Source: Salinirubrum litoreum
Lineage (GTDB): Archaea > Halobacteriota > Halobacteria > Halobacteriales > Haloferacaceae
Assembly: GCF_020567425.1 (NCBI RefSeq)
Contig: NZ_JAJCVJ010000001.1
Span: 1,240,001 to 1,304,000, forward strand
Reading direction: 5' to 3'
DNA: 64,000 nt
Below the pieces are notes generated by a model. It had not been told where the DNA came from, ran no database searches, and saw nothing but the letters and a program-made list of their open reading frames with translations. This document shows, in pieces, positions 15,849 to 63,795 of this stretch. How positions within the stretch are numbered: the first letter of the stretch is position 1; each line of letters begins with the position of its first letter. Made by a program: the position numbers and the translations under genes.

Positions 15849-16127
15849 GTCGTACTCGATCTGGTGGTTTTCTCGGTGACTGTGCTGATGGATAGGGTTC
15901 TGGTCGACAGTTCCAGACGGGAGCGTGTACTTGTGACCGATACTGCACCGCAGACCGCGACCACGACAGCACCGAACTGCATCGACGACCGCGACAGCAC
16001 GGCAACCGCGACTCGTGCGAGGCGAGGAACCGCGACCGCAGACAGCACCGCGACAGCCACCGCAGACGACACCGCCACCGGCACCGCTACGATTGCTAGC
16101 GCACGGAACCGCCACCGCACAGCACCG

Positions 16128-16180
16128 CACCTCGGTCCTCCCCAGCCTCGCGGGGCGCACGAGAGCGCCCCGCTCCCTCG
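16128..16180 (+). repeat. conserved-flank hairpin module, copy A
   Basis: After the CCTCCCCAGCCTCG flank, the 9-bp stem GCGGGGCGC (16150-16158) pairs with GCGCCCCGC (16165-16173) around the loop ACGAGA, followed by the conserved TCCCTCGC. Other copies keep the flanks but use different stems. Confidence 0.75.
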
Positions 16181-16232
16181 CACGCGTCGGAGTCGCGCGC
16201 GCCGGATTTTGAGTCGAATTACACGCAACTCG

Positions 16233-16243: not shown

Positions 16244-16504
16244 CATCCTCGAACGTCTTATTCCTCTGACAGACGACCGGCTCGTCACCCGTTCCGGCCA
16301 ACTTCGGAACCCCGACAGGAAGCGATCTGCTGGCGACCGACACCGAGCAGTGTCCGAGCGACAGTGAGGACCTGCTCGCAGGTCGCGTCGCCAGCAGTCG
16401 GGGAGGTTCGGGGACGACTGCGACGACCGGGTTCCGAACCTTCCGACGACTCGCCGGGTGACGACCAGTGACGACACGATGGGGTCGCACATCTCGGGTG
16501 GGAC

Positions 16505-16835
16505 TGAAAGGGGCCGACCGCTCGATCCATCCCGGACGACGCAAGCCGGGCGGGACCGGAGGTCCCGCTGGAAACCGGCGCGCCGCGCCGGTGACAGAGC
16601 GAGACCGGAGGTCTCGCCAGCAGTCGGGCGACTCTCGGGTCGCCCGACGACACTGGACTGAGGGCGGTCAGCGAGCTGACCGCCCGAGGGAAGCGCGCAG
16701 TGGAGTCCCGGATGCCTTCGTGAGTTTGCGAACAGGGCGAGAGCGAAGCCCTCGCCAGCAACCGGCGCGGAGCGCCGGTGACGAAGGCTCGGGAGAGCTT
16801 GTCTCTCCCGGTGGTCGAGCGGTCGGGGGCTTTCA
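16505..16835 (+). repeat. clamp and hairpin chain of copy A
   Basis: The left arm TGAAAG-GGG-CCGACCGCTCGA (16505-16525) pairs with the right arm TCGAGCGGTCGG-GGG-CTTTCA (16815-16835), apart from an internal GGG/GGG. Between the arms lie perfect hairpins. Examples are CGGGACC/GGTCCCG (16551-16567), GCGAGACC/GGTCTCGC (16599-16617), TCGGGCGAC/GTCGCCCGA (16624-16647), GGGCGGTCAGC/GCTGACCGCCC (16662-16685) and CGGGAGAG/CTCTCCCG (16790-16810). Confidence 0.8.
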
Positions 16836-17020
16836 CCGCTCGTCGTCGTCGACCGACCTAACCAAGTTCGCTTCGACCGACTCCACAGAGTTCTCTACGA
16901 CCGATCCAACCGACTTCATGTCGCAGACCAACTCGACCGAGTTCACGTTTCAGACGTATCCACCCGAGGTCACCCAGAAGTCTCGACAGCTTTACGCCGG
17001 CGTCGGCCGGCGGTGCACGT

Positions 17021-20227: not shown

Positions 20228-20365
20228 CACTCGGCGGGTTCTGGCGCGGCCGAGGTTCGATGCGACTCGGGGTCAGCGCAGGTCCGGTGCGTCCAGTTCC
20301 GATGCGTGGTTTCGGGTCTTCCCGGTTCTTGTTCCGGTCCTCCTGATCTTCGGCGCGCGCGAACA

Positions 20366-20740
20366 GTCGTCCTCGTGAGCTTGCGAACAGGGCGAGACCG
20401 AGGGTCTCGCTGGCAGTCGGCGCGGCGCGCCGACGACAGACCGGGACCTTCGGTCCCGCCGGCAACCGGCGCGAAGCGCCGGTGACGAGGGTCAGCGAGA
20501 GCGTGTCTCTCGCCGGACGTGCGAAGGAAGGTCGCGTGCGGTGCGGAACGCGACCCGAGGCTGGGGAGGGACCGAGGAGCGGTGCCGGTGCTGTTGCAGT
20601 GCGGTCGTGGTGGTGCTGCGGTGGCTGGTAGGCTGCCGGTGCGGTCGTGGTGCCGGTGCTGCTGCGGTGGCTGGTAGGCTGCCGGTGCTGTTGCGGTGGC
20701 CGGTGTGGTCGCAGCCGAGAACTCTGCCACACGTACCACC
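20366..20740 (-). repeat. dispersed hairpin element, copy G (reverse)
   Basis: Read on the minus strand, this has a GAC/CGC-rich tract (20740-20581). That tract includes a 27-nt unit present twice, at 20615-20641 and 20661-20687. Next comes the conserved-flank hairpin, with stem GGTCGCGT (20530-20537) / ACGCGACC (20548-20555) around the conserved loop GCGGTGCGGA. Then follows a chain of hairpins (20366-20520) closely related to the second half of the chain in copy A, including the constant linker TTGCGAACAG. The clamp arms are missing. It fills most of the gap between 20110 and 20844. Confidence 0.75.
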
Positions 20741-28689: not shown

Positions 28690-29260
28690 GTGTGGGTTTC
28701 GTCGACGAGTGGTCGGTCGAGTATGTCACCAACAACGAGCGGTGAAAGCCCCCGGCGTCTCGACCGGCCGCGACTTGGTGTCGTTCGAGAGAGCGAAGCT
28801 CTCTCGTGATGACGAGAGACGCCGACGACGTCTCTCGAACCACGCTCCTCGGTCGGCGAGCCAGCAGGCTGGCTCACCTCCCTGCGGTGCTGACGGGCGA
28901 GCCTCGCCCGTCTGCTGGCGAGACCTCCGGTCTCGCTCTGTCACCGGCGCGGCGCGCCGGTTTCCAGCGGGACCGCCGGTCCCGCCCGGCTTCCGGCGTC
29001 GGGGCCGGACCGAGACGCCGGCCCCGTTCAGTCCCGCCCGGTGTACGCTGTCGAGGCGCACGCAACTCTGACAGACCAGTCGGTTTCAGCGCGAGCGCCT
29101 CCCTGTAACCGTCGGCTCGCCTGAGGCGGGTGCATCCCGCCGAAGTGCGCGACACGAGGCTCGCCCGAGGCAGCCCTACGCCGCCGAGGTGTGGTGCCCG
29201 AGGCGACCCTCCGTCGCCGAAGTGTCGCGCCCGCCCGTTCGACTGGTCGCGTGTCGTCTG
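28690..29260 (-). repeat. dispersed hairpin element, copy F (reverse)
   Basis: Read on the minus strand, this starts with the extended GACCAGTCG-to-CGACTGGT segment (29255-29065), which is nearly the same as in copy C. The clamp arms follow: TGAACG-GGG-CCGGCGTCTCG (29030-29011) and TCGAGACGCCGG-GGG-CTTTCA (28763-28743). Several hairpins lie between the arms. One arm differs from the consensus TGAAAG by a single base that breaks one pair. The conserved-flank hairpin module is absent. It fills the divergent gap between the small membrane gene and truD. Confidence 0.75.
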
Positions 29261-30921: not shown

Positions 30922-31262
30922 ACCAGTCAGACGGGCTGGCGCGAGTTCATTTCGCGCCGATGGTTGCAGGTAGGCCATCGCTGAAACCGACTGGTCCACC
31001 GCAGTTGCGTGCGCTTTCACAAATTCGGGTGGGACTGAAAGGGGCCGACCGCTCGATCCACCTCCGACGATTCAAGCACTGGACTGAGGGCTGGCGGGCT
31101 TGTCCCGCCAGCCCGAGGGAAGCGCGCAGAGAGTCGCAGGTGGTCGAGCGGTCGGGGGCTTTCACCGCTCGTTCTCTGCGACCGATTCGGCAACCCTCAC
31201 GTCTCCAACTGATTCGACAGCATCCACATCATCGACCGATTCGACCGAGTTCACACCTGCTT
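30922..31262 (+). repeat. dispersed hairpin element, copy B (compact)
   Basis: ACCAGTC (30922-30928) pairs with GACTGGT (30989-30995) and encloses GGCGCGA/TCGCGCC (30938-30958). The clamp arms TGAAAG-GGG-CCGACCGCTCGA (31036-31056) and TCGAGCGGTCGG-GGG-CTTTCA (31144-31164) hold one perfect hairpin, GGGCTGGCGGG-CTTGT-CCCGCCAGCCC (31088-31114). Constant flanks CTGGACTGA and GAGGGAAGCGCGCAG border it. The degenerate tail (31167-31262) runs up to the next gene. The GAC-rich tract and conserved-flank hairpin are absent. It fills the convergent gap after truD. Confidence 0.8.
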
Positions 31263-39770: not shown

Positions 39771-40077
39771 CGGCGCGCGCGAGGAACGTGCGCGAGGGAG
39801 CGGGACGGGCGGTGCCGAGAGTCCCGCGAGGCTGGGGAGGACCGAGGTGCGGGTGCTGTCTGCGGTCCGGGTGCGGGTGCTGTCTGCAGTCCGAGTGCGG
39901 TCGTGGTTGTAGTCCGGGTGCGGTCGTGGTTGCAGTCGGCGGTGCGGGTGCGGTCGCGGACGCTGTCGCGGTGCGGTTCCTCGCGCCAGCACGAGTAGCG
40001 GTCGCAGTGGCGGTTGCAGTCGCTGTCGCGGTCTGCGGTGCGGGCTTCTCGTCGGTGCGCTACGACGAGTAGCGGTG
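39771..40077 (-). repeat. dispersed hairpin element, copy H2 (reverse, short form)
   Basis: On the minus strand, the boundary palindromes CGCTA-N7-TAGCG type (40077-40057 and 40002-39983) open a GAC/CGC-rich tract with tandem similarity. The conserved flank follows (39849-39827), then the hairpin GCGGGAC (39800-39806) / GTCCCGC (39821-39827) with a loop close to the conserved one. Clamp arms are absent. It fills the convergent gap between ppk2 and the SRPBCC gene. Confidence 0.72.
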
Positions 40078-51451: not shown

Positions 51452-52165
51452 CACCGCTACGATTGCTAGCGCGGCCACCAGCGGAACCGCGACAGCATCA
51501 GCACCGCAACCGCGACAGCACCGCACCTCGAACCTCCCCAACCTCGCGGGGCGCTCCACACCGCGCGCCCCGCTCCCTCGCGCGTTTCTCGCGCGCCGAC
51601 CGCAACCGCACTGCGACACCCGAGTTGAGAATGTTGCTCACGTCACACCCACCAGTCGAGTGGGCTGGCGCGACACCTCGGCGACGGAGGGCCGCCTCGG
51701 GCACCACACCTCGGCGGCGTGGGGCCGCCTCGGGCGAGCCTCGTGTCGCGCACTTCGGCGGGATGCACCCGCCTCAGGCAAGCCGACGGTCGCAGGGAGG
51801 CTATCGCTGAAACCGACTGGTCCACCGAGAGTTGCACGATGGATCGCAGGTTCACCGGGTGGGACTGAAAGGGGCCGCGTTCTCGATCCACCTCCGACGA
51901 CGTAAGCAGAGCGAGAGCGAAGCTCTCGCGCCAGCAGTCGGGCGACTCCCGTGTCGCCCGACAACACTGGACTGAACGAGGGCGCGGAGCGAAGCGACGC
52001 GTCCTCGTGAAGGAAGCGCGCAACGAGTCGCAGGTGGTCGAGAACGCGGGGGCTTTCACCCCTCGTCGTCCGCGACCGATCCGTCCGAGTTGTCTGTGAG
52101 AGATTCGATAGAAGTGTCTCCAACCGACCCACCCGAGTTCACACCGACGATTCCGAGAAGAACCA
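51452..52165 (+). repeat. dispersed hairpin element, copy C (full)
   Basis: All modules are present: boundary palindrome CCGCTACGATTGCTAGCGC (51454-51472), GAC/CGC-rich tract, conserved flank (51524-51546) and hairpin GCGGGGCGC (51546-51554) / GCGCCCCGC (51565-51573). After these come the extended ACCAGTCG-to-CGACTGGT segment from 51651 and clamp arms TGAAAG-GGG-CCGCGTTCTCGA (51866-51886) and TCGAGAACGCGG-GGG-CTTTCA (52038-52058). Internal hairpins include GCGAGAGC/GCTCTCGC and TCGGGCGAC/GTCGCCCGA. A degenerate tail ends near 52165. It fills the gap between the PQQ lipoprotein and lipA. Confidence 0.8.
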
Positions 52166-55954: not shown

Positions 55955-56795
55955 ACAACGCTCGTACCGCAGACCGCGACCATGACAGCATCCGCACCGC
56001 AGACTGTGACAGCATCCGCACCGCAGACCGTGACAGCATCCGCACCGCAAACAGCAACGCTACTCGATCCGGGACAACCGGAATATTCGACCGCATCCGC
56101 GACCGCGACAGCACCGCAGACCGCCACTGCACAGCACCGCAACCGCGACCGCACCTCGATCCTCCCCAGCCTCGTGACAGAGCGAGAACGGAGCTCTCGC
56201 TAGCCCTCGTTCGGTTTCCTCACGAGGACGCACTCCGCACCGCCCGCGTCACTCCCTCGCACGCGTCAAGTCGCGCGCGCCGACAGCACAGCACCGCGAC
56301 GACCGACTTTCCACCACAACTCGCGCTACACTTACCAGTCGAGTGGGCTGGCGCGAGTTCATCTCGCGCCGACGGTCGCAGGTAGGCGCACACGCTGATC
56401 CGACTGGTCCACCCCAGTTGCGTGCGCTTTCGCAGATTCCACCGGGTGGGACTGAAAGGGGCCGGCGTCTCGACTGGTCCCCGACGCACCAAGCAGAGCG
56501 AGACCGGAGGTCTCGCCAGCCTGAGGGAAGCGCGCAGGAAGTCGCGGGCCATCGAGACGCCGGGGGCTTTCATTTCTCGTTCTCGCCGACCGACTCAACC
56601 GAGTTCTCTGCGACAGATTCGACCGAGTTCTCTGCGACAGATTCGACCGAGTTCTCTGCGACAGATTCGACCGAGTTCTCTGCGACAGATTCGACCGAGT
56701 TCTCTGCGACAGATTCGACCGAGTTCTCGCCGACCGATTCGACCGAATTCTCTCCAACAGAGATTCACCCACGCGAGTCGTCCACCACGTCTCGT
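55955..56795 (+). repeat. dispersed hairpin element, copy D (full, with loop insertion and tandem tail)
   Basis: The GAC/CGC-rich tract (55955-56151) includes two tandem 24-bp units (55992-56039). The conserved flank (56152-56174) is followed by GTGAC ... GTCAC, whose loop has swollen to about 75 nt and holds extra hairpins. The ACCAGTC-to-GACTGGT segment starts at 56334. Clamp arms are TGAAAG-GGG-CCGGCGTCTCGA (56453-56473) and TCGAGACGCCGG-GGG-CTTTCA (56552-56572) around GCGAGACC/GGTCTCGC (56498-56516). The tail is a clean 24-bp tandem array. Confidence 0.8.
56601..56744 (+). repeat. 24-bp tandem repeat, six units
   Basis: Units start at 56601, 56625, 56649, 56673, 56697 and 56721. The first five share GAGTTCTCTGCGACAGATTC plus four more bases; the sixth varies. 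There are no spacers, so this is not CRISPR. The unit length is a multiple of three, so one frame reads TDSTEFSA repeats. Other element copies carry the same unit in degenerate form. Confidence 0.9.
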
Positions 56796-63212: not shown

Positions 63213-63795
63213 CACCGCTACTCGTGCTAGCGCACCGACGAGATGACGCACCCGCGACAGCACCCGCAGACCGCGACAACACCGCAGACCGCGACAACAC
63301 CGCAGACCGCGACAACACCGCAGACCGCGACAACACCACTACTCGTGCTAGCGCGAGGAACCGCACCGCGACAGCACCGCACCTCGGTCCTCCCCAGCCT
63401 CGGGGTTCTCTCCGCACCGCCCGAACCCCTCCCTCGCGCGTTTCTCGCGCGCCGACCGCAAACCGCACCGCGACACTGAACTGAAGCGCCGACTCACGAC
63501 ACGTTTACCAGTCGAGTGGGCTGGCGCGAGTTCATCTCGCGCCGACGGTTGCAGGGAGGCGCTCGCGCTGATCCGACTGGTCCACCGGGAGTTGCGTGAT
63601 GGGTCGCAGATTCCACCGGGTGGGACTGAAAGGGGCCGAGAGCGCGGGGGCTTTCACCTCACGTTGTCCACGACAGCTTCACCTGAGTTCTCTGCGACCG
63701 ATTCGACAGCAATCACATCACTCAGAGACGTTCATCGCTCGTCCTCTCCGACACACTCGACCGAAGTCACTTCTCGCAGAGGATTTCACCCCTCT
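63213..63795 (+). repeat. dispersed hairpin element, copy E (full order, collapsed clamp)
   Basis: Boundary palindromes at 63213-63233 and 63334-63354 flank a GAC/CGC-rich tract with a four-unit 18-bp tandem. The conserved flank (63380-63402) and hairpin GGGGTTC (63402-63408) / GAACCCC (63423-63429) follow. ACCAGTCG (63507) to CGACTGGT encloses GGCGCGAG/CTCGCGCC. The clamp is reduced to one small hairpin (63627-63656), with the internal chain gone. A degenerate tail ends near 63795. It fills most of the gap after the CinA-like gene. Confidence 0.8.
63265..63336 (+). repeat. 18-bp tandem repeat, four units
   Basis: The unit CGCAGACCGCGACAACAC is repeated exactly at 63265, 63283, 63301 and 63319, with no spacers. 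It is the cleanest form of the GAC/CGC-rich tract in the window. Confidence 0.92.

Follow-up and report, generated by a model that had tools for sequence, protein, structure and literature searches.

The chain of hairpins at positions 16551-16810 of the window (the whole 64,000-nucleotide stretch of Salinirubrum litoreum DNA that was analysed) makes up the interior of a single copy of an intergenic repeat, E1, and consists mostly of double-hairpin modules, some of them nested in one another. The family, which is apparently undescribed both in Rfam 15 and in the open-access literature that was searched, is unusual in that mobile double hairpins nest within a host fold that is conserved and covaries. 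With somewhat less than even confidence, we read E1 as a non-coding element of the mobile type that acts through the fold of one of its strands, likeliest as single-stranded DNA, and that probably serves many plasmids as a single-strand signal.

The Hairpin Chain Lies within an E1 Element

Seven perfect hairpins that do not overlap (stems, 7-11 bp; loops, 2-6 nt) cover 145 of the 260 bases at 16551-16810, while dinucleotide shuffles contained 0.26 on average and 3 at most (n = 1000) and the median for 260-base stretches of the window was 0. One further, imperfect hairpin is present at 16736-16755, and two long-range stems pair 16714-16721 with 16781-16788 and 16505-16525 with 16815-16835. The preliminary description had counted about ten back-to-back perfect hairpins; the chain is real, but ten perfect hairpins is an overstatement, and a total near ten is reached only when the imperfect hairpin and the two long-range stems are added to the seven perfect ones. 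The constant linkers it had listed, CAGCA, GTGAC, CACTGGACTGA and GAGGGAAGCGCGCAG, are all found in copy A. The 16280-16860 strand folds 7.6 standard deviations below its shuffles, and the chain is enclosed by a closing clamp, 16496-16835. The ends of E1 are an opening motif, GGGTGGGACTGAAAGGGGC, and a closing motif, GGGGCTTTC, between which copy A is built as follows:

16496..16835, + strand: E1 copy A, opening GGGTGGGACTGAAAGGGGC, closing GGGGGCTTTCA, outer stem 16505-16525 with 16815-16835
16547..16595, + strand: double-hairpin insert CGGGCGGGACC..GGTCCCGCTGGAAACCGGCGCG..CGCCGGTGAC, between AAGC and the next module, placed against insert-free copies
16596..16651, + strand: gamma double-hairpin module AGAGCGAGACC..GGTCTCGCCAGCAGTCGGGCGAC..GTCGCCCGACGAC, site AAGC^ACTGG
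16652..16700, + strand: apical core hairpin 16662-16685, flanked by linkers ACTGGACTGA and GAGGGAAGCGCGCAG
16714..16813, + strand: double-hairpin module GCCTTCGTGAG..ACGAAGGC plus CGGGAGAG..CTCTCCCG

Within the first hairpin of the last of these modules, a gamma-type double hairpin (16732-16780) is nested. Five more copies were located in the window:

28744..29039, - strand: E1 copy B, nested gamma-type and alpha modules (the alpha module is genome match C1:1268780); motif match with 2 mismatches
31028..31163, + strand: E1 copy C, core without inserted modules; covariance model E 5.8e-18
51857..52057, + strand: E1 copy D, one gamma module; motif and covariance model
56445..56571, + strand: E1 copy E, core with a single-hairpin apex; covariance model E 4.3e-14
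63619..63655, + strand: E1 copy F, minimal clamp without a chain; covariance model E 8.1e-07

The covariance model was built without the S. litoreum genome and recovers copies in the window as well as fourteen plasmid stretches. The same units had been claimed for other copies as well. As can be seen, there are six E1 clamps in the window, with openings at 16497+, 29038-, 31028+, 51858+, 56445+ and 63619+; the last one is without any insert. A seventh hairpin chain, at 20341-20520, lies outside every E1 clamp.

E1 Is Widespread and Patchily Distributed in Haloarchaea

With up to one mismatch allowed, this 4.06-Mb genome contains 85 matches to the opening motif GTGGGACTGAAAGGGG and none to the reversed pattern, and in nearly every copy that was read a closing motif (GGGGGCTTTCACC) ends 29 to 383 nt past the opening. 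The two large contigs carry 25-28 copies per Mb, while C3 and C4 carry 3-6. Other genomes hold up to about 90 copies (88 in G016 and 71 in G030). In a sample of the class Halobacteria, the exact E1 18-mer was found in 125 of 292 genomes and in 48 of 77 genera; counts by exact motif, which are lower bounds, ranged from 0 to 67 per genome across the class and from 0 to about 30 within single genera, so that the distribution is patchy. A scan of 84,980 species genomes gave, among the matches listed, only haloarchaea as named records. No exact E1 motif was present in IMG/VR, and a viral origin is thus not supported. The Rfam search revealed nothing but a tRNA in the window and, elsewhere, sub-threshold matches with none above the gathering score.

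Nearly all copies are intergenic. Relative to surrounding genes, which were simple calls from codon-position GC, no preferred orientation was seen in 53 copies of this genome and 107 copies from others, and the absence of such a bias argues against a role of E1 as a gene terminator or leader. The orientation of neighbouring copies agreed no more often than expected by chance, i.e., no replichore bias was detected. Some copies form inverted (divergent) pairs with a short spacer, in which the conserved ends face inwards and the common sequence amounts to only ~25-28 bp.

One Strand of E1 Carries a Conserved Fold

The consensus fold, obtained from 40 cores of ~100-130 nt from other genera, contains 29 pairs, 20 of them with compensatory changes. 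All covariation measures exceeded those of every one of 500 shuffles, and a shift of the partner by one column lowered pairing from 92% to 42-48%. Invariance in the opening- and closing-motif columns results from hit selection and provides no evidence of conservation. The core of ~110 nt comprises P1, a GGG/GGG internal loop, P2, P3 and an apical stem, and the internal-loop sequences GACGYAAGCAC / GCGCAGCGAG are conserved in the 40 cores. A G-quadruplex pattern (GGG T GGG ACTGAAA GGGG ... GGGG) fits canonical copies, but in a plasmid variant the G tracts are shorter; the one-mismatch variants, few and related as they are, do not prove selection.

Mismatches in 150 distinct E1 clamps included 57 G.T and only 13 A.C (the outer clamps were used, since internal hairpins contain too few mismatches for this comparison). 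A process acting on double-stranded DNA alone would be symmetric, and the excess of G.T therefore indicates that one E1 strand is selected as a single strand, be it RNA or DNA. The fold being strand-specific, a single-stranded form is required.

In copies of this genome (L013 and L021, for example), the internal-loop strands GACTGA and GAGGGA are found in both arrangements, with 5′ and 3′ strands swapped. Such a swap cannot have arisen by inversion of DNA.

The strongest competitor, to which we give somewhat under one chance in three, is that E1 is a transcribed structured RNA, i.e., a large paralogous non-coding family whose modules are expansion segments in peripheral helices, as in rRNA. 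Covariation and strand-specific tolerance of G.U agree with it (an RNA fold would yield covariation identical to that of single-stranded DNA), as does retention of the internal-loop sequences in 40 cores, and both arrangements of GACTGA/GAGGGA suit a non-canonical RNA motif. On the other hand, no conserved TATA-like or promoter-like block lies upstream of E1; together with the lack of orientation bias, which would leave about half of the copies without read-through from an upstream gene, the missing block disfavours a dedicated transcript and renders transcription of most copies less probable than a role as single-stranded DNA. The short sequence common to divergent pairs, a copy number anywhere between 0 and 67 and the frequency of loss at one locus are likewise at odds with a transcribed RNA. 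Some haloarchaeal 5S rRNAs are known to carry a 108-nt expansion segment (PMC7812874).

On Many Plasmids, E1 Is Located Upstream of an SSB-like Gene

E1 matches were obtained on 121 plasmid records, and 196 encode a protein that resembles one particular SSB-like OB-fold protein. At least 16 plasmids have E1 at 444-618 bp upstream of the SSB-like gene, in divergent arrangement and with its fold on the template strand of that gene:

MN918442, CP100450, CP082287, CP026313, CP100758, CP100003, CP053943, CP070334: E1/SSB-like layout
CP100395, CP100357, CP090373, CP007061, CP098517, CP101455, CP031298, pJ7-1: E1/SSB-like layout

The layout is the same on pNG500 and on pNG600, where the gene is annotated as hypothetical, and on PHS2 another gene is located between the two. 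Pfam OB-fold matches of the protein are sub-threshold only; its names in the database are SOSS complex subunit B, replication factor A or DNA-binding protein. The majority of the plasmids that were opened are typed MPF_T, and on PHS2, CP090373 and CP031298 a TFB gene adjoins the SSB-like gene. No SSB-like gene was shown to adjoin any of the chromosomal copies that were examined, and the SSB-like genes of the S. litoreum genome have no E1 within 1.5 kb.

In bacterial conjugative plasmids, Frpo is a folded single-strand promoter upstream of ssb on the transferred strand (PMC11541004). Plasmid E1 resembles Frpo/ssi sites in being folded, in its position upstream of an SSB gene on T4SS-type plasmids and in folding on the template strand (PMC11541004). 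It differs in that no promoter elements were recognised, in its distance of 444-618 bp from the gene, in being archaeal and in its dispersal on chromosomes as well. The E1 strand would most likely fold as single-stranded DNA that is exposed during replication or transfer, and on many plasmids E1 would probably act like a Frpo/ssi site, as a single-strand signal that precedes the SSB-like gene. Against such a signal, neither a bacterial-type nor an archaeal promoter was recognised within E1, and the 444-618 bp are far for a promoter. A more specific proposal, to which we assign a low likelihood, is that E1 would be an archaeal counterpart of Frpo/ssi that folds on single-stranded DNA, either incoming or lagging, would be recognised by the transcription or primase apparatus of archaea (perhaps together with plasmid TFB), and would have spread through chromosomes and come to host double-hairpin modules as satellite mobile elements. 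The arrangement on T4SS-type plasmids makes early expression from incoming single-stranded DNA in archaea directly testable, and the presence of a conserved single-strand fold in over half of the haloarchaeal genera sampled offers a new entry to archaeal DNA transfer and genome plasticity.

Several related observations were made. A multi-copy 2.1-kb Haloarcula segment, considered as an autonomous transposon, proved to be plasmid E1 together with the SSB-like gene, of which each plasmid has one. In the S. litoreum genome, a small contig carries a match to plasmid-type E1 (C5:28646-28755, - strand; 37.8 bits), which is separated by ~7.6 kb from an SSB-like gene in divergent orientation. Positions 205-343 of the 2.5-kb plasmid pNB101 (L281), which are non-coding, resemble the segment that separates E1 from the SSB-like gene on Haloarcula plasmids.

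Double-Hairpin Modules Occupy Fixed Points of the Core

What varies between E1 copies is the set of whole double hairpins, which occupy fixed positions in the core, and modules are also found nested in one another. The alpha module (58-62 bp) has the layout TGGTTCG - stem - CGTCATCACG - stem - CGAACGA; its stems vary between genomes, while its ends and linker are kept, so that copies are not near-identical. The beta module is 58 bp long and the gamma module ~56 bp, and further types exist. All 16 alpha modules of this genome lie within E1 clamps, and those gamma modules that were inspected sit within E1 or within another type of element, which has CTGGGGAGG. In other genera, some modules are found in reverse orientation and at a different site.

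The TGGTTCG and CGAACGA ends of alpha are imperfect terminal inverted repeats, while beta and gamma have no clear ones. Alpha and beta insertions allow a single possible cut and show no target duplication; gamma appears in other copies as clean 56-bp insertions, with CA or a few more bases in common with the site at the junction. From these junctions, it appears that double-hairpin modules of 50-62 bp may enter several sites of the core, as well as each other, either without target duplication or with a common CA. We propose that they could do so without harm because an insert that folds independently leaves the parent fold intact.

Parts of E1 resemble known kinds of elements (SMRs, double-hairpin elements, REPs and Frpo). 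SMR-A of Haloquadratum walsbyi is ~110 bp long, with more than 95% identity between copies (PMC3119063); like the modules, it is haloarchaeal and short, makes no target duplication and prefers palindromes of other elements (PMC3119063), but the modules are double hairpins of 50-62 bp whose stems differ while ends and linker are constant. The double-hairpin or repetitive hairpin-forming elements of mitochondria are also mobile hairpin pairs that are intergenic, scattered and variable between close relatives (PMC2800124 and references therein); they are, however, independent repeats of organelles, whereas E1 modules nest in a conserved covarying fold on archaeal chromosomes. The mode of repeat evolution that had been called unusual thus has precedents in the SMRs of Haloquadratum and the double-hairpin elements of mitochondria.

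Modules Are Gained and Lost Exactly in Haloarcula

Gain and loss were followed in Haloarcula (the genus assignment is inferred) rather than at the loci of S. litoreum itself, by comparing one orthologous spacer across 32 genomes. The spacers of the species G133 and G167 differ by the exact presence or absence of two modules, one of 60 bp and, in the neighbouring element, one of 58 bp, and only 2 substitutions were found in 417 aligned spacer bases, with the flanking genes differing by 8.8 and 9.0%. So similar a spacer suggests recent recombination, after which, judging from these alignments, module change would have outpaced substitution. Inserts are missing at the corresponding sites in other species (L303 and L308 for alpha, L301 for beta), and both modules are therefore best read as gains. 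In a second pair, G224 and G182, an exact 101-bp E1 hairpin is present in one and absent from the other, with 4 substitutions in 215 bases. Several Haloarcula species retain only collapsed clamps or the tail TCTGGCTGTT at the spacer, and E1 loss must thus be frequent at that locus. Entry of a whole E1 into a clean site was not caught; at the one locus studied, E1 is old and often lost. In L210/L199 compared with L303, L304 and L308, the elements of a divergent pair are swapped left-right, as if inverted between outer repeats.

The proposal that the chain grows and shrinks by whole hairpins is borne out by these exact differences at orthologous spacers, where both modules and whole hairpins come and go; the outcome that would have spoken against it, identical chains that differ by point mutations only, was not found in Haloarcula. 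What moves, though, is not a single hairpin but a double hairpin of ~50-62 bp, or a whole clamp. Structure at these Haloarcula loci changes by whole double hairpins faster than by substitution, which opens module insertion to study in cultured organisms.

Exact loss of a hairpin between the feet of its stem fits slippage across the hairpin, and deletion of whole hairpins in this manner may lead to the minimal clamps. One could extend this to the entire chain and regard it as a set of passive palindromes without function, in which template switching keeps the arms complementary and slippage expands or collapses the hairpins. Perfect stems, the exact losses and the collapsed clamps of several species all accord with such a scenario. 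We nevertheless consider it improbable, since template switching is strand-symmetric, in conflict with the 57 G.T to 13 A.C ratio, unpaired loops and linkers are conserved across genera, and modules at new sites are homologous across families rather than duplicates of the adjoining hairpin.

Mobilisation of E1

No mobilising enzyme for E1 was found. A Y1 transposase (IS200/IS605 or RAYT) that recognises the single-strand fold could in principle mobilise E1 as a REP/BIME- or PATE-like element. The strand-specific fold, the many intergenic copies, the inverted pairs with short spacers and the lack of target duplication are as this would predict, and PATEs and REPs show like behaviour (PMC3119063, PMC3116915). 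Yet no Y1 transposase (PF01797) is encoded in G016 (88 copies, 99% complete) or in G030 (71 copies, 81% complete), many genomes that bear Y1 are without E1, none of the 15 TnpB genes of the S. litoreum genome adjoins a chromosomal E1, E1 greatly exceeds a REP in length, and its pairs have their conserved ends turned inwards; such mobilisation is, in our estimate, about as doubtful as the passive palindromes.

REP/BIME/REPIN sequences are similar to E1 in being intergenic palindromes, dozens to hundreds per genome and often in inverted pairs (PMC3116915, PMC2817692). REPs are 20-40 bp long with a conserved tetranucleotide at one end and are associated with the RAYT transposase, whereas E1 spans 29-383 nt, has a complex conserved core and does not need a Y1 enzyme. 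The PATEs of Haloquadratum are, like E1, haloarchaeal, transposase-free and palindromic, lack target duplications and are hosts of small insertions (PMC3119063). Layout and proximity set the two apart: PATEs have near-terminal palindromes related to IS605 ends, while E1 has one full-length clamp and no association with TnpB.

Spread of E1 and its modules as retroelements, through an RNA copy, would account for a structured, high-copy element with short tandem-repeat tails downstream in this genome but is very improbable, given that no sampled high-copy genome encodes a reverse transcriptase (PF00078) and only one of 40 relatives does.

Other Structured Elements of the Window

A second structured family, E2, consists of CCTCCCCAGCC, a variable hairpin and then CTCCCTCGCGCG, with GCGGTTGCGGTGCGG-type repeats on its other side:

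16125-16202, 51521-51596, 63377-63452, + strand: E2
20517-20569, 39775-39852, - strand: E2

E2 also hosts gamma modules and is often found near E1. A third element (CCAGTCGAGTGGGCTGGCGCGA ... GACTGGTCCACC) is located just upstream of E1 at 30922-31000, 51637-51825, 56334-56413 and 63507-63586, and in some cases a series of CACCTCGGCGGCG..CCGCCTCGGGC hairpin units takes the place of its inner hairpin. A tandem array with a 24-nt unit (TCGACCGAGTTCTCTGCGACAGAT) occupies positions 56579-56737, downstream of E1 copy E, and degenerate forms of it follow other copies.
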